A DNA stretch of 24,335 nucleotides from positions 2,951 through 27,285 of the IMG/VR virus record IMGVR_UViG_3300000101_000118; one strand, written 5' to 3'. This DNA is from a virus. Shown in pieces: positions 4,084 through 24,335 of this stretch (the first letter of the stretch is position 1; each line of letters begins with the position of its first letter). A program made the translations under genes and the position numbers. Below the pieces are notes generated by a model. The model searched no databases. It had not been told where the DNA came from and saw nothing but the letters and a program-made list of their open reading frames with translations.

Positions 4084-5253
4084 TTATTTGTTTTTAAGTT
4101 CATCTATTTGCTTTTGTTGATCCTTGATGGATTCAATAAGAAGAGCAACTAATTTAGGGTAATCTACACTTTTAAACCCGCTATCCCCAGTTGTTACTAA
4201 TTGGGGGAGAACTTTTTCTACATCTTGAGCTATTACACCAACACTAGGTAAAGTTTGTTGTGTTGGAGTGGCCAATTTATTCCAATCCCAAGTTACACCA
4301 TTTAATTGTTTTAACTTGTCAATTGGGGATTCTATATTCTGGATATTATCTTTTAGGTTTCTATCTGAAGAGGTAGAAGATATTACTTCTCCTCCTACGT
4401 TTAAATCACCTCCTATACCTACACCACCTGTTACTGTTACTGCCCCACTAGTTTTGCTAGTAGAAGGGGATGTGTTTGTAAATGTTTTAACTCCTCCAAT
4501 ATTATCTTGGTCGGATGTTAGATCTACAAAATGTGAAGAATTATATCTAGTATCAGTATTATTAGAGGTTATAGTAATTGTATTAGTATATTGATCAAAT
4601 ATAATACCTGTTGCACCCTCTCCTTTTAATTTAAATTGAGAATCTTCTACAATTGTAAAATGATTACCCCCATTAGAATCAGATATTTTAAAACCTTTAC
4701 CCATACCAACAGTATCTGTAACAGTCTCTGTAGATGTTTCTATATCTGTGATATGGCCATAGTTGTCTAAGGTTAGGTTTTGGATATAAGTTCTTCCTGA
4801 ATTATTTGTGGAGGTTGCGTTTGATGTATCTTTATGAGAAAATACAGTATCATTTAATTCTACTCCTTCTCCGGCAGTATATGTAGTATCTGGGGAGTCT
4901 GAGTGGAGTACCATGTCTGTAAAAGAGGCTGTTAGGATAGTACCATTTGCCTGTTTTAAAGTAATAGTTTTTTCTTCATTACCTTCTACAGAAAGTTCTT
5001 TTATAGGATTTGAAATGTCTACTATTGAGCTTTTAAATATCTGTCCTGTAGTATTATTGAATGATAAAAGGTATTCCTGTGGGGTCCTTAATATACCACT
5101 TGGTTTTAAATAAGTAGAACCTGATATGGTTAATGAACCTAGTACACTTAAATCGTATGGTTCTTTAGCTGTTAAAGCATTTGCAAATTGAGAAATATGC
5201 CAAGGTTCAATAGGTGTTCCTTTTTTTATATCTGCTTTTAGAATTTTTGCCAT
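4084..5253 (-). CDS. Tail fibre/spike with C-terminal peptidase S74 chaperone
   Basis: A 389-residue protein. The N-terminus (residues 11-50) carries GTPIEPWHISQF and VLGSLTISGS, a module shared with the 375-residue protein encoded further upstream. The middle (60-290) is polar beta-structure sequence rich in Thr/Asn/Gly, ending in a glycine-rich stretch (GGVGIGGDLNVGGEV, 276-290) typical just before S74 domains. The intramolecular chaperone starts at S296-D-R-N-L-K301, a Ser and Lys five residues apart like the endosialidase catalytic dyad. It continues through GVIAQDVEKVLP (339-350) and VDYPKLVALLIESIK (363-377) into a terminal coiled coil. The expected outcome is trimer folding followed by self-cleavage before Ser296. 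It is probably a receptor-binding or side fibre. The start has an A-rich leader and the CATATTTATAA element 10 bases upstream. Confidence 0.9.
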   Translation of the reverse strand: MAKILKADIKKGTPIEPWHISQFANALTAKEPYDLSVLGSLTISGSTYLKPSGILRTPQEYLLSFNNTTGQIFKSSIVDISNPIKELSVEGNEEKTITLKQANGTILTASFTDMVLHSDSPDTTYTAGEGVELNDTVFSHKDTSNATSTNNSGRTYIQNLTLDNYGHITDIETSTETVTDTVGMGKGFKISDSNGGNHFTIVEDSQFKLKGEGATGIIFDQYTNTITITSNNTDTRYNSSHFVDLTSDQDNIGGVKTFTNTSPSTSKTSGAVTVTGGVGIGGDLNVGGEVISSTSSDRNLKDNIQNIESPIDKLKQLNGVTWDWNKLATPTQQTLPSVGVIAQDVEKVLPQLVTTGDSGFKSVDYPKLVALLIESIKDQQKQIDELKNK

Positions 5254-5340: not shown

Positions 5341-5362
5341 CCCTAGCTATTTCTAACTAGGG
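5341..5362 (-). terminator. Weak hairpin over the end of the tail chaperone gene
   Basis: The arms CCCTAG (5341-5346) and CTAGGG (5357-5362) are separated by 10 bases. The stop codon TAG of the 138-residue gene (5353-5355) lies in the loop. On the minus strand no T-run follows, so factor-independent termination is doubtful. It could stabilise mRNA ends or be chance. Confidence 0.25.
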
Positions 5363-5769
5363 GGTGTTGGTAGATATTCAGAAGCGAATGTTTTTGTATT
5401 ATCAAAGATATAGTTATCTGTTATATTTCTAAGAACTGATCTATAATTTTTCCATTCTAATTTTTTTGTGTCTGTTAATGGACTATCTATTACTTGTGTC
5501 CAATCACTAGCTTGGAGTAAACGATTTCGTTGACTGCGTATTGAAGATAACATTTGTTCTGAAGGGGTGGGGGGTGTTGGTGGGGGTGGTAAGGTGAATA
5601 CCCCATCTATTACCCTTGCTTTACCCGTAACTGCTATCTCACGTTCTGCTTCACTTATTTCTAAAGTAGTAAAGTTAGGATTTAAGTTTTCATCTATACT
5701 AGATTGTTCATAAGAACTATCCCACACATAATATATTTGTTGGTTGTGGTATTGACAATAATATTTCAT
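5353..5769 (-). CDS. Tail fibre assembly chaperone-like protein
   Basis: A 138-residue protein with two parts joined by a proline-rich linker (LPPPPTPPTPS, 60-70). The C-terminal part has RSQRNRLLQASDWTQVIDS (78-96), then EWKNYRSVLRNI (105-116). This is the RdxLLxxxDWT...W..YR..LR pattern of the phage tail assembly chaperone family (Pfam Phage_tail_APC type). Such proteins commonly sit just downstream of a long fibre gene and help it fold or trimerise. Here the gene starts 24 bases after the 2218-residue fibre, which fits. The N-terminal part (1-59) is a small, tyrosine-rich domain that may contact the fibre. The leader is A/T-only, with no Shine-Dalgarno sequence. Confidence 0.75.
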   Translation of the reverse strand: MKYYCQYHNQQIYYVWDSSYEQSSIDENLNPNFTTLEISEAEREIAVTGKARVIDGVFTLPPPPTPPTPSEQMLSSIRSQRNRLLQASDWTQVIDSPLTDTKKLEWKNYRSVLRNITDNYIFDNTKTFASEYLPTPPS

Positions 5770-5793: not shown

Positions 5794-8700
5794 TTAGTAA
5801 GGGTATACTAAAACATATTCAAACTTCATAGTACCCGAAGTATTGCTCATTTCTCTAATAGCGAATTTGAATGATGTTGATGTTTTATCAAAAATTGTTA
5901 GTATACAATCATTTTGTTCGTTGTAACTTGAATAGTTAAAAGTGGTTGTAGACACTCCTCTTAAATTTCCTAATACATAATAGTCTGCATCTCCAACATT
6001 AGAAAAACTAACTGTATAAATTGAATCATTTGAATTTTGGGGTAGTGTAAAAGAATATGAACCCTTACGTATATAAGGTAATGGGAGTTTTTTAATTGAA
6101 GAATTGTAATAACTATTGAGGTATTTGAAATGTATTGATCTATCAGTCGCATCAATATTTCCTTTGATATTAATAGATCCTGTTACATTTAAAGCTACCT
6201 CAGTTGTGTTGTCTAGATTAACAATTCCCCCTTTTGTTTCCAATATTTTGGTGGTATCTGCAGCTCCAGGGGGGTTTCTAGGTATTTGAACATATTGGTT
6301 ATTATTAGTTACAACTTGCACCCCTCCTCCGGAAATTTCAGAGAAATTAGAGGGTAGTAACAAATCTATATTATAGAACTGTATAGGGGTATAAGTCCCA
6401 CTAGTAGTAATGCGGGTTGTTTGGGTAGCCGTAGAAAATGTAGGTTGATTATTACTGGTAAGGGAGTGGGTAATCTCTCTAGAGGATCTAACTTTTAAAT
6501 TTAAAACAACTCTAAAACTATAGTAACTAGAAGTATTATTTACTTCAAATATTAAAGGATCTGTAATTAAATTTCTTTTGGATTCGGCTCCGATTGATGC
6601 CGCAGAATTATTAGTTAATCGTTCCCAATCACCTGCGTTAGCACCGGATTTTATTAAAGACCAATAATCTAATTCCTTGCGACCTTTTATAACAACACTA
6701 TTAATTATTTCTCGTTGAGCAACAGCCCCTTGCACCAACATTTCTATTACTGTTTCTAACTCCGCTTCTCCCCTATATGAATCCTCAGATGTGTAAAAAG
6801 CAGTATCTGGTTGTAATGTTGAAAGGTAAGATGAAACATCAGAAAAAGAAGAAGGGGATGTGCTTTCACCTGTTGGAATATCGTCTCTTATTTGTTCTTT
6901 TAAGGCGGTTGAATAGTTTTGAATGTTCCCTAAAGCAATTCTATCTACAGTATAGAATCCTGTTTTAGAAAACTGTTGACCATTGGAAGTATCTGATAAT
7001 TTTGTTTGGGTTTTGAAAGATCTGTTTGAATTTGTATACCCTGTAAGGTCAAAATTTGAAGAAATTATATATTGATCTGAATCGTAAAATTGTTTTGAGG
7101 CACCAGGTGGGGATAAAGAAGTATCTGCAGTCATTTTAGCTTTTAACTCTCCATCAGTGTCTCTTAATATAATACCTTTTTGGGAAGGATCTAATGTTAT
7201 CCTCGTCGTAGTATCTCTTAGAGACCCATTATTTACTTCCCAATTTCCAATTTTACCCGTATCTGCGTTTATAGATCCTGATATAATAGCATTGACCGCT
7301 GTCATATTACCTTCTGAATCAACTGAAAAATTGGGGGTTCCATCCCCTACATTTTCTGGTATACTTAATGATCCTCCTTCTAATGAACCTCCTATTATTC
7401 GTGATCCACTTACTGTACCTTTAAAAAATGCACTTCCATCAGTATCTATTCTAAAGTTTTGAGATGATATTGATCCATTATCTAAATCAATAGCCATACC
7501 TGCTGTAGACATTGATGATCCATCTGAAGTTCCTGAATGGTTATTGGAGAGTATTTTTCCGGTTTTAATTGTGTTTCCGGAGATTTTGGTTGATTGTCCT
7601 AAACTCTTCCCAGCTGACATTCTATTGAATATAAGGTAGTGGGAGTTACCATTCCTATTTATTGCAACCCCAGGTTTTAAGTAACGATCAGTTTTAGGAG
7701 ATATACCATTTCCTGCAAATGGGGCGGCATTTGGGTTTGTAGAGTCATATGTCCAAAATGGTTCAGAAAAATCCCCATCTTTAAATACTCTATAAATAGC
7801 CCCTGCTGGTTTAACTTGGATACTTACTCTAAATAAAGTAGGGGTACCATCAACTCGAACAGAGTTCATGAAAGCAGTTGCGTCTGTAATTGGGTTGGAA
7901 CTTCCATTTGCTCTATATAATGAAACTCCTTTTTCATATATGTAAAATGATGTACCCGAAAAATAAAAGGCATGTGTCATTTTAGAATATGAGTATGAGG
8001 ATTCATCTTTATCATATAAACCTAACATTGTGGTAGGAGAAGAAGAAGCTACTACATCCCACTCAAATGTTCCTCCATTTTCTCTATCATATATTGCTTT
8101 TGTACGAAATCCTTGTCCCCAATTACTTTCAACGTAAGCATTATTAAAACTATTACCGTAGGTTGGAGATTCATGACTTCTTTGGGTTGAAATATTGTTT
8201 TCAAATAGATTACTGTCTAAAGATCCACTAAAATTATAATCTAAAGATGGACCCACCCCTTCAATTTCTAGCTCTCCTTTAAATTTTGCATTACCACTTG
8301 TATCAATGTAAAAATCTTTGGAGTGGATAGATCCCGCGGCCGCTAACGTTACGCCCCCATCGCTCTTGTATCCATTCGTGTCTTTAGTACCTGAATATAT
8401 AGCTGTTGGGTCTACTGTCCATCCTCCTATTGTACCTGATTTTTTATCGTCTGTTTGAATGTATACTATTTCTGCTTCTACTAATTTTCCGCCATCGTCA
8501 GCAGTATTAGACCACAAATTTAAGCTGTTACTTCCAGAAACAACTTGTACAGTATCAAAGAATACACCTGTGCTTCCGTCGCTTAAACCTAAGTCTGATA
8601 TATGTAATCTAGTTTTAAGTGGGTTTCCGTTAACCGAGGCTTGGATACCATGGTAGTTAGGGTAAGAACCTGTGGCTTCCGCATCATCAACGGCTAGTTT

Positions 8701-11700
8701 TAACTGGGCTGGACCTGCTACTTTAGATTGGAAAGTGTAAATTAAACCTGTTGACTCCGTTGTTGGTGGGTTGTGAGGAATTGAAGTGCCTGCCCCAGTG
8801 GTGGTTATATGTAATAGAACGGGGGTGTCTACATTTTCGTTAAAAGTGTTATCTTCATTTAAGGCTGTATTACCTATCTTCATCGTACCCGAAAACTCAG
8901 AGTCACCATTGGAGGCTATTCTAAAGTTTTGAGATGATATCGCCCCATTATCTAAATCAATAGCCATTCCCGCTGTAGACATTGCGGATCCATCTGAAGT
9001 TCCTGAATGGTTATTAGATATAATTGTACCAGTTTGGATTGTGTTTCCAGAGATTTTGGAAGAAATTCCTAAAGTTTTTCCCCCTGACATTTTACTGAAT
9101 AATACATTATTATCTGAACTGGAATAATATATTGATGCTCCAGGGTTTAAATATCTGGTAGATACATTTTGGTCTTGTGAGTCATATATTGCATAGGGTA
9201 CTGAAAAATCTCCATTTTTAAATATTTTATAAACAGCTCCTGTTGGTTTTAGTTGGATACTTACCCTAAATAAAGCAGGAACATTAGTCACCCAGGCGTC
9301 ATCAAATATTTTTACTTGATTACCTGAGTTTCCATTTTCTATTATGAATATATCGTTGGTTTGGAAATATACAGTATGTACTTGGCCGTAGGGTGTTACA
9401 GGGGAAGAACTGGAGGAAGCAAAAAGTCCAATTCTTGTTGCCGCTCGATATTTTGATACTACTATATCCCATTCAAATACACCTCCATCTTTTCTGTCAA
9501 ATGTTGCTTTTGTGCGGAATCCTTCATCCCAACCATCGGCATTATTATTAAATTCATTTCCAAATACAGGTGAATCATAACTAACAGTTGTTGTTATGCT
9601 TGAATTAAATAAATTGCTATCCAAAGAACCGCTAAAATTATATTCAAATGATGGACCTACTCCTGGGTTACCTATTTGTAAGCTTTGTCCGTTCCATACT
9701 AACCCATCATCTCCTGAACCTGATAATACAAATAGTCCAGATGAAGACATGAAAGCTAAGAAATTACTTCCATTATGAAATCCAAGTGCATCCTTACTAT
9801 AATATAACCCTGGTATTTGGGGGGTTGTTGGGAGACTTCCAAGAGTCATATCCATACCAGGTCCGAAGTTATATGTTTCAGGGTTGGAGAAGGAAGCAGT
9901 TACTAAAATAAGATCATCTATTCGATTTTGTGCTATACTTGCTGATGTTATAGCCTTAGTTGCATAATTTAAGGCGTTACCCGCAGATGTTTGTGCCGCG
10001 GCTGCAGAAGATGATGCCTCGGATGATGCTAAACTTGAGGAGTTTGCTGTTTCTATAGCGTTAGAAGCACTTGTTGCTACGTTTCCTATAGAATTCTCTA
10101 AAGATCCTGTTGCAGAACCTAATGCATCTGCTGCTGTATTTTCTGCAGCGGATTGTGCATTATTACTTGCAGTAGTAGCAAAATTTTCTGCTGCTGTTTG
10201 TGCCGCAGATGCTGATAATGATGCTGTGGTTGCTACGTCTCCTATAGAATCTTCTAAAGATCCTGTTGCAGAACCTAATGCATCTGCTGCTGTATTTTCT
10301 GCAGCGGCTCGTGCATCATTACTAGCACTAGTAGCAAAATCTTCTGCTTCTGATTGTGCAGCACTAGCGCTAGCAAAAGCTGCTAAAAAGCTATCTACTG
10401 ATGATGATTGTTCATTTTCAAAGTCATCTCTAGAGGTAAAATCACCTGTATTTGTTACGTGTACTTCTCCATTGATTACTAAAACTCCATTACTCCAAGA
10501 TAACCCACTACCTCCACTTCCGCTTAAGTGAAAATTACCACTAGAATCCATATAAGTGGACCATTTATTCCCATCATGATATCCTAATTTATCTGATCCT
10601 AGATGTAGCCCAGCAGTAGGGCTAGGTACGCTACCTAATTGGAAACCATTAGGACCAAAGGAATATGTAGAAGGATTAAAAGTATTTGAAGAGTTAAGAT
10701 CGGTACCATCAATTGTTACAGTACCTTTAAACCCAGCACTTCCATCTTTATTTATATAAAAATTAGGTGAATGTAATGAACCTTGGTAATTTAGGATCAT
10801 ACCACCACTTGCCCCATTATACCCATAGATATTTTTGTTTGGGTTTTCAAGGGGTCCTGAATTTATATTGTATGTGCCTATTTGCCACCCCGCTAAAGTA
10901 CCTGATGTTCTATCTTTATTTTGTGTATATAATACTTCTATATTTTTTAAAGTTCCATTATCACCATTACTTGACCAAACTCTTATAGTGTTTGAACCTG
11001 AATACACGTATACATCTTCTGTATAAGTAGTGGTTGGAAGGGAATATGCATCAGCGTAATTGGGGGTTAATGCTGTTCCACCATTGTCGTTTATTCTATC
11101 AATAGTATCTTCAAATATACCTAATCCACTTAATCGTGTTTTGAATTTTAAACCATTGCATGAGGCTTGTATACCATTGTAATTAGGAAAACTTCCTGTT
11201 GCTTCAGCATCATGTATATCTAATTTTATTTGCGCTGTTCCCTCTCTAGAAGTATTAAATACATATGCTAGAGCGTTATTAGGAGTTGCATTTATAGGGA
11301 TAGCTGAGTTTACTGGGAAATTAGCAAGTGTGCTTGATAATTCTTTTGATGCCGTAAGTGCACTATCTAGTATACCTTGGGGGTTAGTGCCCACGTAATC
11401 TCCTAATCCAACATTAGCAGCTGTTGTACCTGCTTGTATTGATGCTGTATCTATATTTTGGACATTTCCTAACCCAACATTAGCAGCTGTTGTACCTGCT
11501 TGTATTGATGCTGGGGTAATATTTACAAAATTCTCTAATCCTAATGATGTAGCGCTTACGGTATTAACATTTGTATTAAGTACTTCAGAAATACTATATT
11601 CCTCACTACCAACAGATAATGTACCTGTAAATGTTCCAGTTGCTCCTGTTATATTTGATCCTGATAGATTACCTTTAAAGTGGGCATTACCACCCCCATC

Positions 11701-12450
11701 TATGCTAAAATTTTCAGATTTTATAGTACCTGCATCATCACCACTTAATATTATTTTGGTACCTGTATCGGAGAAAGTGGCATCGCTCCCATCAGCATAA
11801 CCGTGACTTTTTATTTCCCCAGTTGTAATTTTACTTCCATCTATCGCTGTAATGTTTAATGAAACCCCATTGATGTTTGTTATCTCATCATCATTTTCTC
11901 CTGAAAAGGTAACTAAACCTGAGAAGCTTGTATGTTTTGAAACTGCACCAAAGGCAGGAGTACCCACTATAGGGTCGGCACCTGCTGTTGTTTCAATTAC
12001 TGAATAGGGTATATGCCAATAATTTTTTGATTGTGAACCAGGTGTTAAGGTTGGTGGTGTTTGAGACCAACCAGTGGGTAATGCGGTAAATATTCCTGTT
12101 GAGAAATTGTAAGTAGTATCTACACCAACAGTACTGAATGTAGGTGCGTTATCAGAAGCTGAAGAATAAAAAACATACCCACTAGTAGAGGATTTTCCAT
12201 CATCTCCTGTAGGTCCTTGTGCAGATAAAGGAAGCCAATGAGCAGAATTAGTACTATCATCACCTTGCAATATGTAAAGGCCATTTGGGTTACTATCGTC
12301 ATTATAAACTGCAACCACCATTTGTTTGTAAGCATATGGGATTGATGTTAAATCACTTACTGTTTCTACTCTAGTCCTAGCATCTAAGGGTGCTTTTTTT
12401 AGAACTTCAAGATTTGTTGGAAATTCTATATTACCTAATTCTCTAGCCAT
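5794..12450 (-). CDS. Giant modular tail fibre protein, 2218 residues
   Basis: The N-terminus (1-75) looks like an attachment domain (APLDARTRVETVSDL, then a strand-rich segment to HWLPL), followed by a single short collagen-like QGPTGDDG. Several segments follow the pattern x-I-x-TG-x-I...(S)xNF-x-I-D-x-x-G-x-x-x-F-x-G, typical of long fibres and tail-tip proteins: about 205-265, 1134-1194 and 1627-1687. Repeated modules make up most of the rest: a 22-residue tandem repeat (about 313-350); module A/B (377-571 and 1217-1387, sharing DAEATGS-PNY-GIQAS); module D (584-667 and 857-927); module C (931-1131 and 1401-1624, sharing LFRVSIQ-KP-GA-Y). An Ala/Ser-rich, probably coiled-coil stretch spans 674-854. 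The C-terminal 500 residues are not repeated and are a candidate tip. Likely a trimeric adhesion fibre; no enzymatic motif seen. Confidence 0.85.
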   Translation of the reverse strand: MARELGNIEFPTNLEVLKKAPLDARTRVETVSDLTSIPYAYKQMVVAVYNDDSNPNGLYILQGDDSTNSAHWLPLSAQGPTGDDGKSSTSGYVFYSSASDNAPTFSTVGVDTTYNFSTGIFTALPTGWSQTPPTLTPGSQSKNYWHIPYSVIETTAGADPIVGTPAFGAVSKHTSFSGLVTFSGENDDEITNINGVSLNITAIDGSKITTGEIKSHGYADGSDATFSDTGTKIILSGDDAGTIKSENFSIDGGGNAHFKGNLSGSNITGATGTFTGTLSVGSEEYSISEVLNTNVNTVSATSLGLENFVNITPASIQAGTTAANVGLGNVQNIDTASIQAGTTAANVGLGDYVGTNPQGILDSALTASKELSSTLANFPVNSAIPINATPNNALAYVFNTSREGTAQIKLDIHDAEATGSFPNYNGIQASCNGLKFKTRLSGLGIFEDTIDRINDNGGTALTPNYADAYSLPTTTYTEDVYVYSGSNTIRVWSSNGDNGTLKNIEVLYTQNKDRTSGTLAGWQIGTYNINSGPLENPNKNIYGYNGASGGMILNYQGSLHSPNFYINKDGSAGFKGTVTIDGTDLNSSNTFNPSTYSFGPNGFQLGSVPSPTAGLHLGSDKLGYHDGNKWSTYMDSSGNFHLSGSGGSGLSWSNGVLVINGEVHVTNTGDFTSRDDFENEQSSSVDSFLAAFASASAAQSEAEDFATSASNDARAAAENTAADALGSATGSLEDSIGDVATTASLSASAAQTAAENFATTASNNAQSAAENTAADALGSATGSLENSIGNVATSASNAIETANSSSLASSEASSSAAAAQTSAGNALNYATKAITSASIAQNRIDDLILVTASFSNPETYNFGPGMDMTLGSLPTTPQIPGLYYSKDALGFHNGSNFLAFMSSSGLFVLSGSGDDGLVWNGQSLQIGNPGVGPSFEYNFSGSLDSNLFNSSITTTVSYDSPVFGNEFNNNADGWDEGFRTKATFDRKDGGVFEWDIVVSKYRAATRIGLFASSSSSPVTPYGQVHTVYFQTNDIFIIENGNSGNQVKIFDDAWVTNVPALFRVSIQLKPTGAVYKIFKNGDFSVPYAIYDSQDQNVSTRYLNPGASIYYSSSDNNVLFSKMSGGKTLGISSKISGNTIQTGTIISNNHSGTSDGSAMSTAGMAIDLDNGAISSQNFRIASNGDSEFSGTMKIGNTALNEDNTFNENVDTPVLLHITTTGAGTSIPHNPPTTESTGLIYTFQSKVAGPAQLKLAVDDAEATGSYPNYHGIQASVNGNPLKTRLHISDLGLSDGSTGVFFDTVQVVSGSNSLNLWSNTADDGGKLVEAEIVYIQTDDKKSGTIGGWTVDPTAIYSGTKDTNGYKSDGGVTLAAAGSIHSKDFYIDTSGNAKFKGELEIEGVGPSLDYNFSGSLDSNLFENNISTQRSHESPTYGNSFNNAYVESNWGQGFRTKAIYDRENGGTFEWDVVASSSPTTMLGLYDKDESSYSYSKMTHAFYFSGTSFYIYEKGVSLYRANGSSNPITDATAFMNSVRVDGTPTLFRVSIQVKPAGAIYRVFKDGDFSEPFWTYDSTNPNAAPFAGNGISPKTDRYLKPGVAINRNGNSHYLIFNRMSAGKSLGQSTKISGNTIKTGKILSNNHSGTSDGSSMSTAGMAIDLDNGSISSQNFRIDTDGSAFFKGTVSGSRIIGGSLEGGSLSIPENVGDGTPNFSVDSEGNMTAVNAIISGSINADTGKIGNWEVNNGSLRDTTTRITLDPSQKGIILRDTDGELKAKMTADTSLSPPGASKQFYDSDQYIISSNFDLTGYTNSNRSFKTQTKLSDTSNGQQFSKTGFYTVDRIALGNIQNYSTALKEQIRDDIPTGESTSPSSFSDVSSYLSTLQPDTAFYTSEDSYRGEAELETVIEMLVQGAVAQREIINSVVIKGRKELDYWSLIKSGANAGDWERLTNNSAASIGAESKRNLITDPLIFEVNNTSSYYSFRVVLNLKVRSSREITHSLTSNNQPTFSTATQTTRITTSGTYTPIQFYNIDLLLPSNFSEISGGGVQVVTNNNQYVQIPRNPPGAADTTKILETKGGIVNLDNTTEVALNVTGSINIKGNIDATDRSIHFKYLNSYYNSSIKKLPLPYIRKGSYSFTLPQNSNDSIYTVSFSNVGDADYYVLGNLRGVSTTTFNYSSYNEQNDCILTIFDKTSTSFKFAIREMSNTSGTMKFEYVLVYPY
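7451..9015 (-). repeat. Near-identical 95-bp duplication within the fibre gene
   Basis: The sequences at 7451-7545 and 8921-9015 differ at about 7 of 95 bases. They encode the SNNHSGTSDGS and AIDLDNG-ISSQNFRI segments in the same frame. They are the best-conserved part of a larger duplication covering modules A/B and C. The low divergence relative to the flanks suggests recent duplication or gene conversion. Confidence 0.85.
10085..10306 (-). repeat. 66-bp direct repeat in the Ala/Ser coiled-coil region
   Basis: The copies at 10085-10150 and 10241-10306 differ at 2 bases and are spaced 156 bp (52 codons) apart. They encode AAENTAADALGSATGSLE-SIG in the Ala/Ser-rich part of the fibre. The spacing keeps the frame, so gain or loss of a unit would change the fibre length without breaking it. 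Confidence 0.85.
11402..11513 (-). repeat. Tandem 22-codon repeat in the fibre N-terminal region
   Basis: The 46-bp copies at 11402-11447 and 11468-11513 differ by one base and have a 66-bp period. They encode ASIQAGTTAANVGLG twice in a row. Confidence 0.85.
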
Positions 12451-16348: not shown

Positions 16349-19300
16349 TTAGGATTCTATTACTCCTTTATCAATTAAATCAGTTACTATCGCAGAAGCA
16401 CTATTTTGTAGGTATTCTGTTGGGAAATCTGGGAATAATATACCAGGTGAATTAGTTATAGTTGGCAATTTACCATAAGGGAATGATGAATCCAAGTATA
16501 TTGTATTGATATTATCTATATATCTTCTTACTAAAAAGAAATCTTTATTTAAAGATGTATTTACTAAATTAGTTTGTGAATGAAAATGTACAAAAGGTAA
16601 TTTTCTATCTAATTCTATTTTTAACCTACCTACATCATCTCCCATTATATTTTTAGATGGAGGTGTTACATTTACAATTTTGTAAGAATATGATTCATTG
16701 TTCGCAAATCTTATTTCATCATTTACTTCTAATCTTAATGGACCAAACGTTTCCCCAATTGTAGTTCCTGTAGGTTCTGTACCTCCTGGGAAGAATTCTG
16801 AGTCTCCTATTGTATAAGGTAATGCACTTTGTTTATATGAATCCCCATATGCTTCATTCATATTAGATGAAGACATAAATAATATGTTACTACCAGAAAT
16901 GTCAATAGACATTGAAGCACCTCCTACTAATTCTGAACCAAATACCCAGAAAGGAGCTGAACCTGAATTATTACTTTCTAACAGGTGAGTTTTCGATCCT
17001 CTCATTGTAATAGTTGTAGGGGTTCTTGGGCCTGTAAAAGCTGGAGGGTTTATAATGTTATTTTTTCCTTGACCATTTGAGTTATGCATAGAACCTTCTA
17101 ACTGCCAAGATAAAGAAGATCCACTTTGGTATAGGTTATCAGATGAATTTGCTTTTAATGTCCACTCTAAACCTGCAATATCTCCTCCTACTTCTACTCC
17201 TTTAGAACTAGCAAACCCATTGTCTTTTAGAATACTAACTACTATATCATTATCTATTTGAATTTCTGCTTGTTTTGAAGAATTTAATGCTATGCCATAC
17301 CCTCCACCATATTTGTTTATTATAGTAGAAGAAGTTCTTCTTCTAAAACCTCTCCCTCCCCCAGAAACAGTTGAGGTCTTTTTTGTTTCTTGATATTTCT
17401 GTACATATTTTACTTTATCTGAAACGGAACCTAGGTCGAAAGATTTTCCATCAGTTTTCCATACTTTTAATCCTATATCTTCTAATACAAATGGTATGTT
17501 CTTTTGAGAGTTACTTTCAGTTGTTTCGTATAGTAATCCTAAAGTAAGTGTAAATTCTAATCTTTCTCTATGTTTATGTCCTCTCCAAAAACTACCATTT
17601 CTGTTATAATCCGAATCATATATATAGGATGTTGGAATTGAAGTTTCTAGGTCAATAAAATGTTGTTGTGAAGTATCATTTCCTGGGGATGTATAACTTT
17701 CACTATTAAAAGATATTATACCAGATGATGCCGTATAAGCCTGATATGTTCCTCCTTGGTATTGTTTAAAGTTTACATTTTCGCTAGGATTTAAAATTTC
17801 TGTAAAGGATGCTGTTCCAAGTGTTGTATCACCTAAAGAAGATGTACCAAAAGCAGTAAAGCTATAATCTGTAAAGGCCGCTGAACTATTTCCATCATAC
17901 ATACTAACAATCCCAGATCCTGAAATTGGGATACTTGTTGCATAACCCCTAGATGAGGTTTGTGTATACATAATAGGAGCGGGATATTGTCCTATTTTAA
18001 ATATGGGTTTTAGAGTGTTTAATTCTTGTAATTCTTGACTACCCGAAGAAACAGATATTCGTGCATCTCCATTTTTTGGAAATGTTTTTTCGAATATATC
18101 TCTTGATATATTATTTTCTAAAGATGGAGGTAAAGCGTTACCATCTTGATCAATTAAATAATTTAAATTTACTCTAGTTTTATTATTTAGTAAAGGATAT
18201 GAATCCGATATATCATTGAAATATCCAAAATATGCATCTCTAGATTCTATAGCAGGTAATTTACCAAAAGTACCAATATCCGAAGGTGACCAAACATTTA
18301 AATATTGAGATGATGCCTTTGACCCTTCGTATTTGAGTGAAGTACTTGATACCGCAGTATAATTTGAATCTGGTACTGTTGCTTTTGTTGCTGTTTTATC
18401 TAAAATTAAACCTAGGTTTGAAGGTACTATGGAATTATCGTTATAGTTTATGTCATATAAGAATGTGCTAGGTCGTTGTGAATTAGCATTGTTTAATAAA
18501 GGTTGGCAATCTAAAGAATATTGGAAAGGTAATACATCATCTCCAAAATATGTAGGTACGATGAAAGCAGAAGAGGTTGGTTCCTTAAAATTACCATATG
18601 ATGGGGTAGAATTAGGTAATGGGGAGAATTCCGATTGGGAAGGGAATATACTCATAGTATATGAGGTAATTGTAAGCCCCGAAGTAAAACTTTTATCAAC
18701 ATGAACCCCCATCCTAAAGGCATCGTCATACTCAAAAGAGAGATTATCAATTGAACCCGTTAATGTAGCTGTCCCGCTTATTGTATCATTAGGTACTATA
18801 AATTGGTGAAAATTCTCACCAGGGTGTAATCTAGAAACTTGGGTAGAATCAGGGGAAGTTGGGGTTTGTTTTTTTAGGTAAATAGATCCTGTTAAATTAT
18901 AAGTAGCGGGGACCTCAAAAGATTGAGATATTGCAATTTTAGTGTTAACATCTCCACCTTCTTTAAATTTAACAGTTTGAGCTTGACCAATCGCACCACT
19001 TCCAATTTGGAAATTATCAAATACATATTCTACATAATACATATCCCCTACACTGTTTATTGTAGAAGATGTGGTGGAAGAGATTAGGGATGTATTCTTA
19101 ATATCATTTATTGGACTATCAGTAAAGGTAAATGTTGAACCATTATCCAGGGATTGGGATGTTAATTTATTTGATGCTGTAATAATATAACCCGTAGAAG
19201 GTATACCTGATCCTGTTCTTTTTAAGAAGGCTTGAACATCTATTCTTGGGTGTGAATCGGCTGGGGTAATAGAAGAGGTAATGGGGTTGTTAGTACCTAG

Positions 19301-22300: not shown

Positions 22301-24335
22301 GGCGGGACGTGTAAGGTTACTATTATCTACATTTATTTGGACTGACCACCAATCTCCGTCAAAGAAAGGTAAATAGACACTCGCAGATATTTCTGGGGAA
22401 TTAAAAGATGGTATCCATTTTAATGTACCGTAATAATCATTGGAATCTGCAACTGAACCTGAATATGATCCTGTTACTAATCCTGATCCTGTATATTCTA
22501 ACATTAATAGACCACCTAAAGATGAAATGTTTGATGAAAAATTTTGGGTAGTGAATAAAGATTGAGAATATCTTATATTACTAGATGCAATATTATTTAC
22601 AGGGGAAGGAATCCCATCAGTTTTAAATCTTAATTGTATTGAACTAGGAGGGGATGATATTAAAGGATTTACACACCCTAAAGATTCTATAGACCCTGTA
22701 CCACTTGAAATTCTTTGTTCAAATTTTCCAGTTGTATCAAAGGAATCAAAATAGTTTTTAAATTTAGTTTGGAAAATTCCACCACTGTCAACATTAAACC
22801 CGTAATTAAAAGTGTTTTGATTTAAATCCCAATCTTGAGATTCATTTCTATCTTTACCTCCGAATTCATTAATTCTTAAAATAGTATCCGGAATACCATA
22901 AGATGTAATCAAGGCTCTTAAACCAGGAATTGTACCTTTAGTTTTAAGAAGATATGGTAAGTTATGGTATATTCGTTTATATAAACGCTTATTTACCCCG
23001 TCCAATGGGATTACATTGTTGGAAGAAGATACTTTAGTATCTATGTATTCAAACCCATTAGGTGTTGGAAGTGATGATGTTATTTGGGGGAAAGGGAATA
23101 AACTCCCTGAAGGGGTTAGACCTAAAAATGCTGAAAATAAATCATCATTATTGAAATTATTTGAATACAATTTTACACCAAAATCCTTAATGGCTTCTGA
23201 TACTAGATCTTTAGATATACCATATTCTAAACGGTTATCAGCATCAAATTTATTTGTAATATCTTTAGTATAAAGCCAAACATTGTCATAATGTTGACCA
23301 ACCATATCAATAAATAAGTCGTATTGAGAGTTGTCTGGGTCTTCTCTTAAATATTCTGGTATGGTAGAGTATAGTCTGTCTTTATTATTTTCATCATAAT
23401 TAGATGCAGAGAGTGCTAAACCTCCATAGTATGGAGATTCCTCACTTACACTACCTACCCAATTTAGGGCTTGTGAACTTCCTGTAGAATATAATTGAAA
23501 AGGTGGTTCTGTATTTGATTTGGGGTAAGAAAAACTAGAGCCACTATTAAAATACATAAAGTATTCATGACCATCAAAATTCTTAATTATATCATCTATT
23601 TCGGCAACAATTGATGCCTTACTAGAACTATATGAGGTAGTACCTGTTGTATCACTTGTAACAAGAGATAAAAAATCGGACAGTTCATTGGTTTTAGATT
23701 CTATTAAACCTACCTTATAGTAAAAATTTTCTAATCTTGTTTTAGCGGAAGAAAAATGAACAAATTCATTAAAATCTTCGTAATTTATATTAATATTTAT
23801 CTCCTTTTCATTAAGCAAACTTTGGATTTGATTTAATGAACTAGTAACATTTGAATTTAATAAACCATCATATGAAAATAGTTGACTAGATTCCCCAGTT
23901 TCTTGGGAAATGTTTAAATTAAAATTTGGGCCTGAGATAAATGTAAAATCATCTTGAGCTTCTACTATAAAAGGGAATGTTACCTGATATGCTTGGGGTG
24001 TAGATATTTCTTCTACTACCCACAATTGAGATTTAACATCAAATTGAGAAGGTAAAGGCTCATACAGTTTAATTAATACTGTATCATTATCTATTTTAAG
24101 GTTATTAGCTATGAGAATTTGGTTAGAACCAAAATTCAGTTTAAAATCTACAAAATACTCAGCTTCATCCCTGTATTGAATAAATTCATTAGTAGAATTA
24201 AGAGTATCTGTAATATCTATTTGAGTACTATCTAATCTAATTTCAGTTCTATTTGAACTAATTTCACTTATAAAATATCTAAGTGAGGAAGAAGAGGCTA
24301 ATCTTTTTCTATAAAAATTATAATTAGAAAAGTAG
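16349..24335 (-). CDS. Giant tail/baseplate structural protein, N-terminus cut by window edge
   Basis: The reading frame has no stop from 16349 to the right edge, giving at least 2661 residues. A TTG at 24023-24025 could be read as a start, but about 103 codons of protein-like sequence precede it (including RKRLASSSSLRYFISEISSN), so the gene continues beyond the window. Near 22905-22960 is a conserved stretch HNLPYLLKTKGTIPGLRALI. This KGT...GL pattern recalls P2 gpI/baseplate-wedge proteins. About 22000-22700 contains two strands with WSVQI and QELRYW, like a laminin-G/concanavalin jelly roll. Near 21340-21400, FFDNSLFKMIKDFTPTRTSL is another conserved block. The long C-terminal part is Ser/Thr/Asn-rich beta sequence, including an Arg/Gly-rich patch (GGGRGFRRR, near 17340-17370). 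A baseplate scaffold or fibre-bearing role is inferred; no catalytic motif seen. Confidence 0.8.
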   Translation of the reverse strand, partial: YFSNYNFYRKRLASSSSLRYFISEISSNRTEIRLDSTQIDITDTLNSTNEFIQYRDEAEYFVDFKLNFGSNQILIANNLKIDNDTVLIKLYEPLPSQFDVKSQLWVVEEISTPQAYQVTFPFIVEAQDDFTFISGPNFNLNISQETGESSQLFSYDGLLNSNVTSSLNQIQSLLNEKEINININYEDFNEFVHFSSAKTRLENFYYKVGLIESKTNELSDFLSLVTSDTTGTTSYSSSKASIVAEIDDIIKNFDGHEYFMYFNSGSSFSYPKSNTEPPFQLYSTGSSQALNWVGSVSEESPYYGGLALSASNYDENNKDRLYSTIPEYLREDPDNSQYDLFIDMVGQHYDNVWLYTKDITNKFDADNRLEYGISKDLVSEAIKDFGVKLYSNNFNNDDLFSAFLGLTPSGSLFPFPQITSSLPTPNGFEYIDTKVSSSNNVIPLDGVNKRLYKRIYHNLPYLLKTKGTIPGLRALITSYGIPDTILRINEFGGKDRNESQDWDLNQNTFNYGFNVDSGGIFQTKFKNYFDSFDTTGKFEQRISSGTGSIESLGCVNPLISSPPSSIQLRFKTDGIPSPVNNIASSNIRYSQSLFTTQNFSSNISSLGGLLMLEYTGSGLVTGSYSGSVADSNDYYGTLKWIPSFNSPEISASVYLPFFDGDWWSVQINVDNSNLTRPALIGEFEQRVLDDSGILEAIGSLNSFLKSPTNSTLQAANQIDGKIGFIGSNEATNFIPNNWNNSTTSSLNTDISSISIGGKSYQPLSGSYQELRYWSQELSQSHFYDYVVNPYSIEGNGVNSSPDQLYFRADLGTQLNENSRTSIHPRVTGSTNNITSSFTDGTSTFTITNPVFTPNTEHVFQDQTPSGIKNRVTDKIEVKSSILAENVKDSNPDITVLSPMRSIQQDSYVSQSYTPDIDYLEVAFSPQDQINDDINAQLGYFNIGDYIGDPRHISSSNRSYPDLDKLRDAYFDKYIKSYDVVDFIRLMKFFDNSLFKMIKDFTPTRTSLSSGVVVKQHILERNRQTPVQTSLSNETYSGSIKPQVRNFNTGSGDVGQYEYTGGSSIYKFSGGPGGSTNRYNGLQTSPSASAYNLTNNFGLTQSYEEIKSGLLGKETVTIFNQDEFYNGEFKGSDIVVTTQSLNPQCEPYLRVANTPVQYKPLFFNSSIGDAGGTEAVVSETAFIQPDNHPSTGEAWILSKTSNSSSRIVSTVRLASIDDLGNTLDQYLDDSNVLRLIQPTGDVVEYHITGFIYLGDSIVLKISDTQGDFNVYSSPNGGTKNWSLSVSGSYTSSNRSEGDLTSQGVFRDGNTESQTQDIFFWGDQAGNGSTVNDALGFFNTGSDSIDFSQIDDNLDYYNYGSYNIKETPNINWFFSCSVNYSASNLNIPSGITSSGIYHSSSNYSGGGLTNQDFYVFSYTAARSFIPSPKITQDLSNTIFSPTYNNLIKGNSIQSNPTFSIGGHPLVTTEGTASLDFNFPSLTLSGSQTTLSPTFNFTDLSGSNGTNSFYESGMQTYTVSNYQPFSPSTGFQNQGTINIIRNGVIDLATARGISNYVPQNNNLFTNIEIVCSVQNVTASIEITEIYGQPLTPIEVKADSNNKIIFPQYTAIPIQNSTYSSHFFNLVLKSPEENFNYTFSPSSVTTPTDTYIRFQTSGTDGNGTYSGYTVDIWKSAGNNHFQLGTNNPITSSITPADSHPRIDVQAFLKRTGSGIPSTGYIITASNKLTSQSLDNGSTFTFTDSPINDIKNTSLISSTTSSTINSVGDMYYVEYVFDNFQIGSGAIGQAQTVKFKEGGDVNTKIAISQSFEVPATYNLTGSIYLKKQTPTSPDSTQVSRLHPGENFHQFIVPNDTISGTATLTGSIDNLSFEYDDAFRMGVHVDKSFTSGLTITSYTMSIFPSQSEFSPLPNSTPSYGNFKEPTSSAFIVPTYFGDDVLPFQYSLDCQPLLNNANSQRPSTFLYDINYNDNSIVPSNLGLILDKTATKATVPDSNYTAVSSTSLKYEGSKASSQYLNVWSPSDIGTFGKLPAIESRDAYFGYFNDISDSYPLLNNKTRVNLNYLIDQDGNALPPSLENNISRDIFEKTFPKNGDARISVSSGSQELQELNTLKPIFKIGQYPAPIMYTQTSSRGYATSIPISGSGIVSMYDGNSSAAFTDYSFTAFGTSSLGDTTLGTASFTEILNPSENVNFKQYQGGTYQAYTASSGIISFNSESYTSPGNDTSQQHFIDLETSIPTSYIYDSDYNRNGSFWRGHKHRERLEFTLTLGLLYETTESNSQKNIPFVLEDIGLKVWKTDGKSFDLGSVSDKVKYVQKYQETKKTSTVSGGGRGFRRRTSSTIINKYGGGYGIALNSSKQAEIQIDNDIVVSILKDNGFASSKGVEVGGDIAGLEWTLKANSSDNLYQSGSSLSWQLEGSMHNSNGQGKNNIINPPAFTGPRTPTTITMRGSKTHLLESNNSGSAPFWVFGSELVGGASMSIDISGSNILFMSSSNMNEAYGDSYKQSALPYTIGDSEFFPGGTEPTGTTIGETFGPLRLEVNDEIRFANNESYSYKIVNVTPPSKNIMGDDVGRLKIELDRKLPFVHFHSQTNLVNTSLNKDFFLVRRYIDNINTIYLDSSFPYGKLPTITNSPGILFPDFPTEYLQNSASAIVTDLIDKGVIES

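Follow-up and report, generated by a model that had tools for sequence, protein, structure and literature searches.

The stretch analysed here, which we call the window, comprises 24,335 bases out of the 27,285-base metagenomic virus record IMGVR_UViG_3300000101_000118. On its minus strand a single open reading frame (ORF) of 2218 codons lies among tail fibre and fibre-assembly genes. Judged from this sequence context, and as one part of an overall explanation that we hold to be somewhat probable as a whole, the gene would belong to an uncultivated tailed phage and encode its long tail fibre. The whole protein matched no PHROG family, and its sole match in Pfam was to Ntox17, below threshold (E 0.063). 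The gene, its modules and its neighbours are listed here. Residue numbers are those of the 2218-residue protein, the names T, GW, B, W and S core were coined in this analysis, L numbers denote the related loci described below, and HMM stands for hidden Markov model.

5794..12450, minus strand: fibre gene, 2218 residues; ORF open over 2218 codons
11656..11856, minus strand: T1 module, residues 199-265, IDG-x-KI-x-TG ... NF-x-I-x(3)-G-x-A-x-F-x-G (self dot-plot, shuffles)
11356..11568, minus strand: 22-residue tandem array (t22, VGLGNVxN-type), residues 295-365 (repeat search, self dot-plot)
10918..11289, minus strand: P domain copy 1, residues 388-511 (self dot-plot); CBM35/6-like β-sandwich, a weak fold match by way of the model of copy 2
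10687..10920, minus strand: GW1 stem module, residues 511-588 (self dot-plot, HMMs); closest to L008 2537-2600 (63%)
10465..10638, minus strand: B1 module, residues 605-662 (self dot-plot); closest to the B preceding C in L036 and L024 (71-73%)
9871..10425, minus strand: "coil", an Ala/Ser-rich region with a 52-residue tandem repeat, residues 676-860; putative coil
9664..9837, minus strand: B2 module, residues 872-929; closest to the B preceding C in L005, L006 and L008 (77-80%; clade support 99/97)
9121..9663, minus strand: C domain copy 1, residues 930-1110; predicted ConA-like jelly roll
8881..9072, minus strand: T3 module, residues 1127-1190 (self dot-plot)
8921..9015, minus strand: partner of the 95-bp patch, inside T3; 88/95 identical
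8452..8763, minus strand: P domain copy 2 (P'), residues 1230-1333 (self dot-plot); closest to L023 (58%)
8257..8454, minus strand: GW2 stem module, residues 1333-1398 (self dot-plot, HMMs, tree)
7660..8256, minus strand: C domain copy 2 (C'), residues 1399-1597, between GW2 and T5
7411..7605, minus strand: T5 module, residues 1616-1680 (self dot-plot)
7451..7545, minus strand: 95-bp patch, inside T5; near-identical to 8921-9015
7219..7335, minus strand: W stem module, residues 1706-1744 (placed by HMMs)
5353..5769, minus strand: tail fibre assembly protein gene, just downstream of the fibre gene (PHROG 4912, E 2.8e-12)
4084..5253, minus strand: second fibre gene with an endosialidase-type chaperone end, Peptidase_S74 (PF13884, E 5.2e-16, and PHROG tail fibre families)

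Repeated modules in the fibre

From N to C terminus the modules run T1-t22-P-GW1-B1-coil-B2-C-T3-P'-GW2-C'-T5-W. The T and GW modules end in a common motif, NF-x-I-x(3)-G-x-x-x-F-x-G, which we term the S core. A self dot-plot of the protein (plot window 25) was compared with 10 shuffled proteins, whose best segments scored 38-51, and segments scoring 51 or less were not counted. It identified P/P', GW1/GW2, B1/B2, C/C' and three copies of T as dispersed repeats. In each of the seven module pairs tested, the real score was reached by 0 of 1000 shuffles (z 8.5 to 60.6).

The first-pass annotation had described several repeated modules in the interleaved order A-B-D-coil-D'-C-T-A'-B'-C'-T', with a TG-x-I/NF-x-I module present at least three times, and had suggested a self dot-plot as a check. 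The plot bears this description out: off-diagonal similarity extends well beyond the 95-bp segment, the order is correct (A/B corresponds to P-GW and D to B), and T copies lie at residues 199-265, 1127-1190 and 1616-1680. The range given, 7390-11320, corresponds to residues about 377-1687 and leaves out T1 and the 22-residue array, which lie N-terminal of it.

The repeat copies differ in age. The identity above 90% reported for parts of the gene holds for the 95-bp segment, where 7451-7545 and 8921-9015 agree at 88/95 bases; other stretches of the C-T/C'-T' pair, compared at fixed offsets, agree at 91/115, 59/74, 47/58, 64/86 and, at the lowest, 21/41 bases. Overall, C-T and C'-T' are 63.5% identical in nucleotides and 54% in protein. 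Synonymous divergence (dS) between C-T3 and C'-T5 is 1.14 overall, 0.27 in the 95-bp patch, and 1.29 without residues 1625-1680; it is about 1.1 for C/C' and about 1.6 for P/P'. Within the patch, T3 and T5 use the same codon at 24/28 shared residues (other than M and W), compared with 13/26 for T3 and 16/25 for T5 against L036, the best-scoring other fibre; the near relatives L036 and L024 use the same codon at 23/27. A Fisher test of the patch against the remainder (24/28 vs 57/96 same codons) gave p 0.0072, a post hoc value, as the patch was picked for its identity. Because the patch combines a low dS with a high share of identical codons, T3 and T5 were probably copied or homogenised within the gene after their separation from the other phages, and in-gene copying of the patch is likely. 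In-gene copying is clear in the two tandem regions, the coil (10073-10207 vs 10229-10363, 91% over 135 bp) and the 22-residue array (11398-11447 vs 11464-11513, 96% over 50 bp).

The interleaved order can be described more simply as a tandem pair of T-P-GW-C units, the first of which contains B-coil-B. This suggests an explanation in which a single old T-P-GW-C unit was duplicated in tandem and B-coil-B was later inserted into the first copy, followed by vertical descent with no need for further shuffling. Two units, one insert and a final T account exactly for the order T-P-GW-[B-coil-B]-C-T-P-GW-C-T, and C/C' and P/P' have diverged to a similarly high degree. As described below, the comparison with other fibres makes this history rather improbable.

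Comparison with related fibres

Relatives were collected from IMG/VR by peptide-pattern scans with alignments of C and P, which returned 8, 12 and 53 distinct loci, overlapping one another. Near-copies of one ORF were collapsed, reducing 322 ORFs to 241, and L001-L004, which belong to the window's own record, were excluded. These scans require exact short peptides and miss relatives: the P alignment with L008 added returned 53 loci and the two P copies none. Scans of the same exact-short-peptide kind with the whole protein, the two P copies, the N-terminus and C' alone found no match in IMG/VR; tblastn of C, P with GW1, and the N-terminus found none in 50,697 phage records; and the C alignment gave 159 pattern matches in genome contigs, none of them a relative. 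At E 1e-5 the whole fibre matched no phage records other than five from Vibrio breoganii phages. The match covers residues 1338-1426 (window 8173-8439; 4% of the fibre), that is, GW2 and the start of C', at 48-49% identity; one partner is 18491-18745 of Vibrio phage 1.238.A (NC_055735), where the protein is annotated as a tail fibre, and in the other four records it is hypothetical. The GW2-type stem module therefore extends to cultivated phages.

Module HMMs were used to annotate the window's fibre and 12 others, 11 of them carrying C and one carrying P but not C; the B counts and trees leave out hits of 45 residues or fewer. Module orders and counts vary across these 13 fibres. B modules (hits of at least 46 residues) number two in the window against six or seven in L006, L008, L020, L021 and L044, and C two against one in each of the 11 C-bearing relatives, a lower bound in the six that are open at the 5' end; a weak second C hit in L019, on a branch of length 6.94, was not counted. 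The mix-and-match evolution proposed in the first-pass annotation, together with its expectation of different module counts in related metagenomic phages, is supported. C stands immediately after B in 10/10 C-bearing relatives in which that part is present. The position between GW2 and T5 is occupied by C in the window only; the HMMs detected no C there in the 11 C-bearing relatives.

Five relatives have closed fibre ORFs, measuring 2377-3659 residues from stop to stop: L006, L008, L021 and L044 (3175-3659) and L020 (2377, with an upstream ORF of 825 residues that carries W and GW modules). The fibres of L024 (3121 residues), L005, L012, L019, L022, L023 and L036 are open at the 5' end. All five closed ORFs are longer than that of the window, whose fibre has therefore not simply grown.

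We considered whether the repeats arise from metagenome assembly, for example from collapsed or chimeric reads of several phages. The window covers 24 kb of a 27-kb metagenomic record, and modules with different closest kin are joined in one gene; however, the frame is open over 2218 codons, the B-C-T and P-GW junctions recur in relatives from other records, and the copies are too diverged for read collapse. An artefact is thus very improbable.

Genes other than the fibre provide a measure of overall distance. A neighbouring 222-residue protein is 70-73% identical in 5/7 records searched (none was found in two short ones), a 310-residue protein is 46-50% identical in 6/7, and parts of a 2558-residue protein were found in 4/13 records, with the best stretch in each at 39-43%. 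C copy 1 is 61-67% identical to L005, L006 and L008 and 43-51% identical to the other seven full-length relatives. By their backbone these phages are therefore about equally distant from that of the window, while their fibre modules are unequally so. We note that a 21-bp tandem repeat (2.5 copies, 24215-24266) lies near the window end, just upstream of the listed TTG start of the 2558-residue ORF and within its open frame.

For all 11 dispersed copies the best score came from the fibre of another phage and not from the gene itself, although for T3 the comparison is a near tie (229 against 225). B1 is 73% identical to L036 and B2 80% to L005, compared with 48% to each other; GW1 is 63% identical to L008 and GW2 75% to L031, compared with 45%; and C is 67% identical to L006, compared with 51% to C'. 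By the approximately unbiased test (p-AU), an in-gene sister pair is rejected for B (0.0035) and weakly for GW (0.025). T1 groups with later TS modules of L005, L006, L008, L012, L021 and L022 (97/92), on a long branch whose placement the tree tool marks as unsure, and GW1 groups with L008_2537 and L022_585 (95/88), in a set that also includes two N-terminal GW modules. The TS and GW trees were built without hits under about 50 residues, and the C tree without the long branch L019_C2 and the truncated L022_C1. Read by eye, the relatives' B modules group largely by array position, and the B array therefore looks old.

These comparisons bear on the tandem history described above. Two T-P-GW-C units were found in none of the 12 other fibres (seven of them 5'-open), T1 and T3 fall in different groups, as do GW1 and GW2 (with long-branch warnings), and the different kin of B1 and B2 indicate that the insert is not a simple unit. 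A single clean tandem duplication of P-S-C-S as the sole explanation was rejected on the sister tests of B1/B2 and, weakly, GW1/GW2, and on the separate grouping of T1 and T3.

Several further features of the relatives were seen. The P domains of L008 (residues 2645-2887) and L022 (693-935) are broken by a nested insert of ~145 residues that follows DAEA(A/T)G and is absent from the P copies of the window. L006 and L008 carry an extra ~280 residues after C-T and before the next TS (L008 residues about 2158-2442), again absent from the window; judged by eye, this stretch may be ThuA/amidotransferase-like. Residues 1401-1569 of L020 hold two consecutive GW units with VGLGNVDN linkers, which by eye resemble a local tandem duplication. 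The C-terminus of the L024 fibre resembles by eye the S74 chaperone, which in the window is found in the separate downstream gene at 4084-5253.

Proposed assembly from shared cassettes

The explanation that we place first, with somewhat better than even confidence, is that the fibre was assembled by recombination of cassettes common to related phages, plus local in-gene copying, with lectin-like domains carried on stem modules. Within it, the S core as the site of recombination, the order and direction of events, and the binding of sugars are inferred. By HMM, L008 reads C-T-(other)-TS-GW-P-GW-W and L022 reads C-(other)-TS-W-GW-P-GW-W, its extra W being a short HMM call; the t22 part of both was seen by eye. 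The linker from T1 to P best matches the linker after TS413 of L022 (score 208; next 119), and that from T3 to P' best matches the GW-to-P linker of L008 (86; next 69). On the basis of these matches and of the groupings of T1 and GW1, a block of the L008/L022 type, TS-t22-GW / P-GW / W, seems to be present in the window but split.

The window's fibre would then be the post-C stem block TS-t22-GW-P-GW-W of the L008/L022 type, divided by two insertions: B1-coil-B2-C-T3, which separates GW1 from P', and C'-T5, which separates GW2 from W. Both would end in a C-T cassette, and one additional P would have been placed before GW1 relative to the L008/L022-type block. Local in-gene copying would have been superimposed, as tandem expansion of the coil and the 22-residue array and as homogenisation or recent copying of the T patch.

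The joints lie at or just after the S core. Among the 13 fibres P is followed by GW in 6/6 cases and C by a T module in 13/13 (in four of these over more than 120 residues), while the 50 TS/GW modules have successors of six kinds (P, W, B, GW, C and TS; 15/50 over more than 120 residues). Exchange at the S core would preserve both frame and stem geometry, and the S core with its following linker is therefore a probable joint. In a bolder proposal, the S core would act as a general joint for in-frame recombination, serving as a docking sequence by which this phage group may insert, move or stack lectin cassettes anywhere along the fibre; we regard this as a tentative idea, and rather doubtful at that.

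A number of observations weigh against assembly from shared cassettes. The comparison of best matches is biased towards relatives, which offer 6-85 candidates against one or two in the gene. After correction for five tests the rejection for B stays significant and that for GW is lost. The sister relation is not rejected for C/C' (p-AU 0.144; the rival grouping of C with L005, L006 and L008 without C' is likewise not rejected, 0.244) or for P/P' (0.123), and for T3/T5 it is neither rejected (0.319) nor supported at the protein level. C and C' share a clade with L005, L006 and L008 (99/94), and a plain in-gene copy of C-T, even of P, would be allowed by these trees. T1 and B1 are long branches; in a B tree of 50 rows, B1 falls within another set (86/88), although by path it lies nearest to the B preceding C in L036 and L024. 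The TS and GW trees both carry tool warnings, with long branches that meet and unsettled bootstraps. The linkers from GW1 to B1 and from GW2 to C' are without a clear best match. No relative scanned yielded a close copy of C' or of the first 195 residues, and no donor was identified. The successor counts lack a null model, take in the relatives' N-terminal parts as well, and depend on HMM detection.

Two candidate arguments on C were dropped. C' had appeared as a foreign module far from C; without L019_C2 it falls in the clade of C, L005, L006 and L008 (99/94). An apparent conflict between the C and T trees was also abandoned, as the T that follows C in L006 and L008 is a different one and may be a later replacement.

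A rival reading, growth of the fibre through repeated duplication and recombination within its own gene, was that of the first-pass annotation. The coil and 22-residue tandems are clear local duplications, the T3/T5 patch shares a larger proportion of codons internally than either copy does with L036, and the sister relations of C/C', P/P' and T3/T5 stand unrejected. Against it are the rejection of B1/B2 and, with less force, of GW1/GW2 as sisters, the better match of all 11 copies in other phages, and the greater length of the five closed-ORF relatives. We consider growth of this kind unlikely, if a little less so than the single tandem event. Duplication thus holds for the two tandems, likely for the T patch, and possibly for C/C' and P/P', where the clade shared by C' makes an in-gene copy of C-T possible; it does not hold as a general rule.

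Lectin-like domains and known systems

Assembly from shared cassettes would place four lectin-like domains on the stem. The best of five models of C (pLDDT 84.4, the predicted local distance difference test) has the jelly roll of the ConA-like lectin/glucanase fold. Foldseek matched it best to a legume lectin (E 2.6e-4), and structural alignment gave Z 12-13.7 to β-glucanases, legume lectins, the Douge central fibre and the CBM2 in the evolved Dit of phage J-1. The top match was 3d6e (Z 13.7, root-mean-square deviation (rmsd) 2.9, 154 aligned); the Douge baseplate chain 8zdq_v scored Z 12.4, and 657/959 chains compared had Z of at least 8. C is thus predicted to be a concanavalin-A-like jelly roll. 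P resembles CBM35/CBM6 weakly. Its model (copy 2) has pLDDT 56 overall and about 60-80 over most of the domain. Counting against these assignments, the five C models spanned pLDDT 64.6 to 84.4, and the P fold match is weak, with a best Foldseek E of 1.9e-3, none at or below 0.001, and a template-modelling (TM) score by target of about 0.5. Scanned one by one, the modules had no firm match in Pfam or PHROG (best FKBP_C, E 0.0027, in 1/12 C members), and sequence searches of the PDB gave nothing convincing (best E 0.089 in one, none in another).

The GH16 catalytic motif is E-x-D-x-x-E. In the 12 aligned C copies, E-W-D is invariant (12/12) and the second Glu is absent (12/12; by eye, in the sequence alignment only). 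We therefore favour binding over cleavage as the role suggested for C. Each lectin-like domain (P, C, P' and C') would probably bind an envelope or capsule sugar, two copies of two kinds would give several weak contacts, and exchange of cassettes would change host recognition.

Familiar cases of fibre modularity concern swapping of the C-terminal tip. According to Smug et al. (2023, PMC10684548), tail fibre domains of phage receptor-binding proteins are swapped between otherwise unrelated proteins, both recently and anciently; the word "duplication" occurs 0 times in its main text. The window's fibre resembles these cases in the probable exchange of domains between phage fibres, and differs from those described there in having two lectin-like classes each twice in one protein, with a stem motif recurring between cassettes. 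Mix-and-match between phages is thus already published for receptor-binding proteins, and the window's fibre is ordinary in kind. According to PMC6949934, tail proteins of crAss-like phages carry tandem repeats of BACON domains in one ORF, which arose in one lineage by in-gene duplication and in two others mainly through horizontal transfer of individual domains. Here too tail-associated domains are repeated within one ORF; however, BACON repeats are tandem copies of one domain, whereas the window's fibre has no such head-to-tail array, its P, GW, B, C and T copies alternating. Its lectin-like domains are ConA-like and (weakly) CBM35-like, unlike BACON, and the whole protein has no BACON match in Pfam at E 0.1. 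Like the CBM2 of the J-1 evolved Dit (5ly8; Z 13.1, rmsd 3.0, 159 residues, sequence identity 6%), C is a predicted jelly-roll carbohydrate-binding module in a tail adhesion protein; unlike it, C belongs to another host and protein and shares a long fibre with three other such domains. Carbohydrate-binding modules are also described in adhesion devices of 936-group lactococcal phages (PMC6669499).

Fibre modularity decides host range. In the family to which the window's fibre belongs, internal lectin-like cassettes vary in number and place along the stem, and trees of single modules offer a start in telling duplication from exchange. Should the S core indeed be the joint, fibre evolution in these uncultivated phages would be predictable from one short motif.

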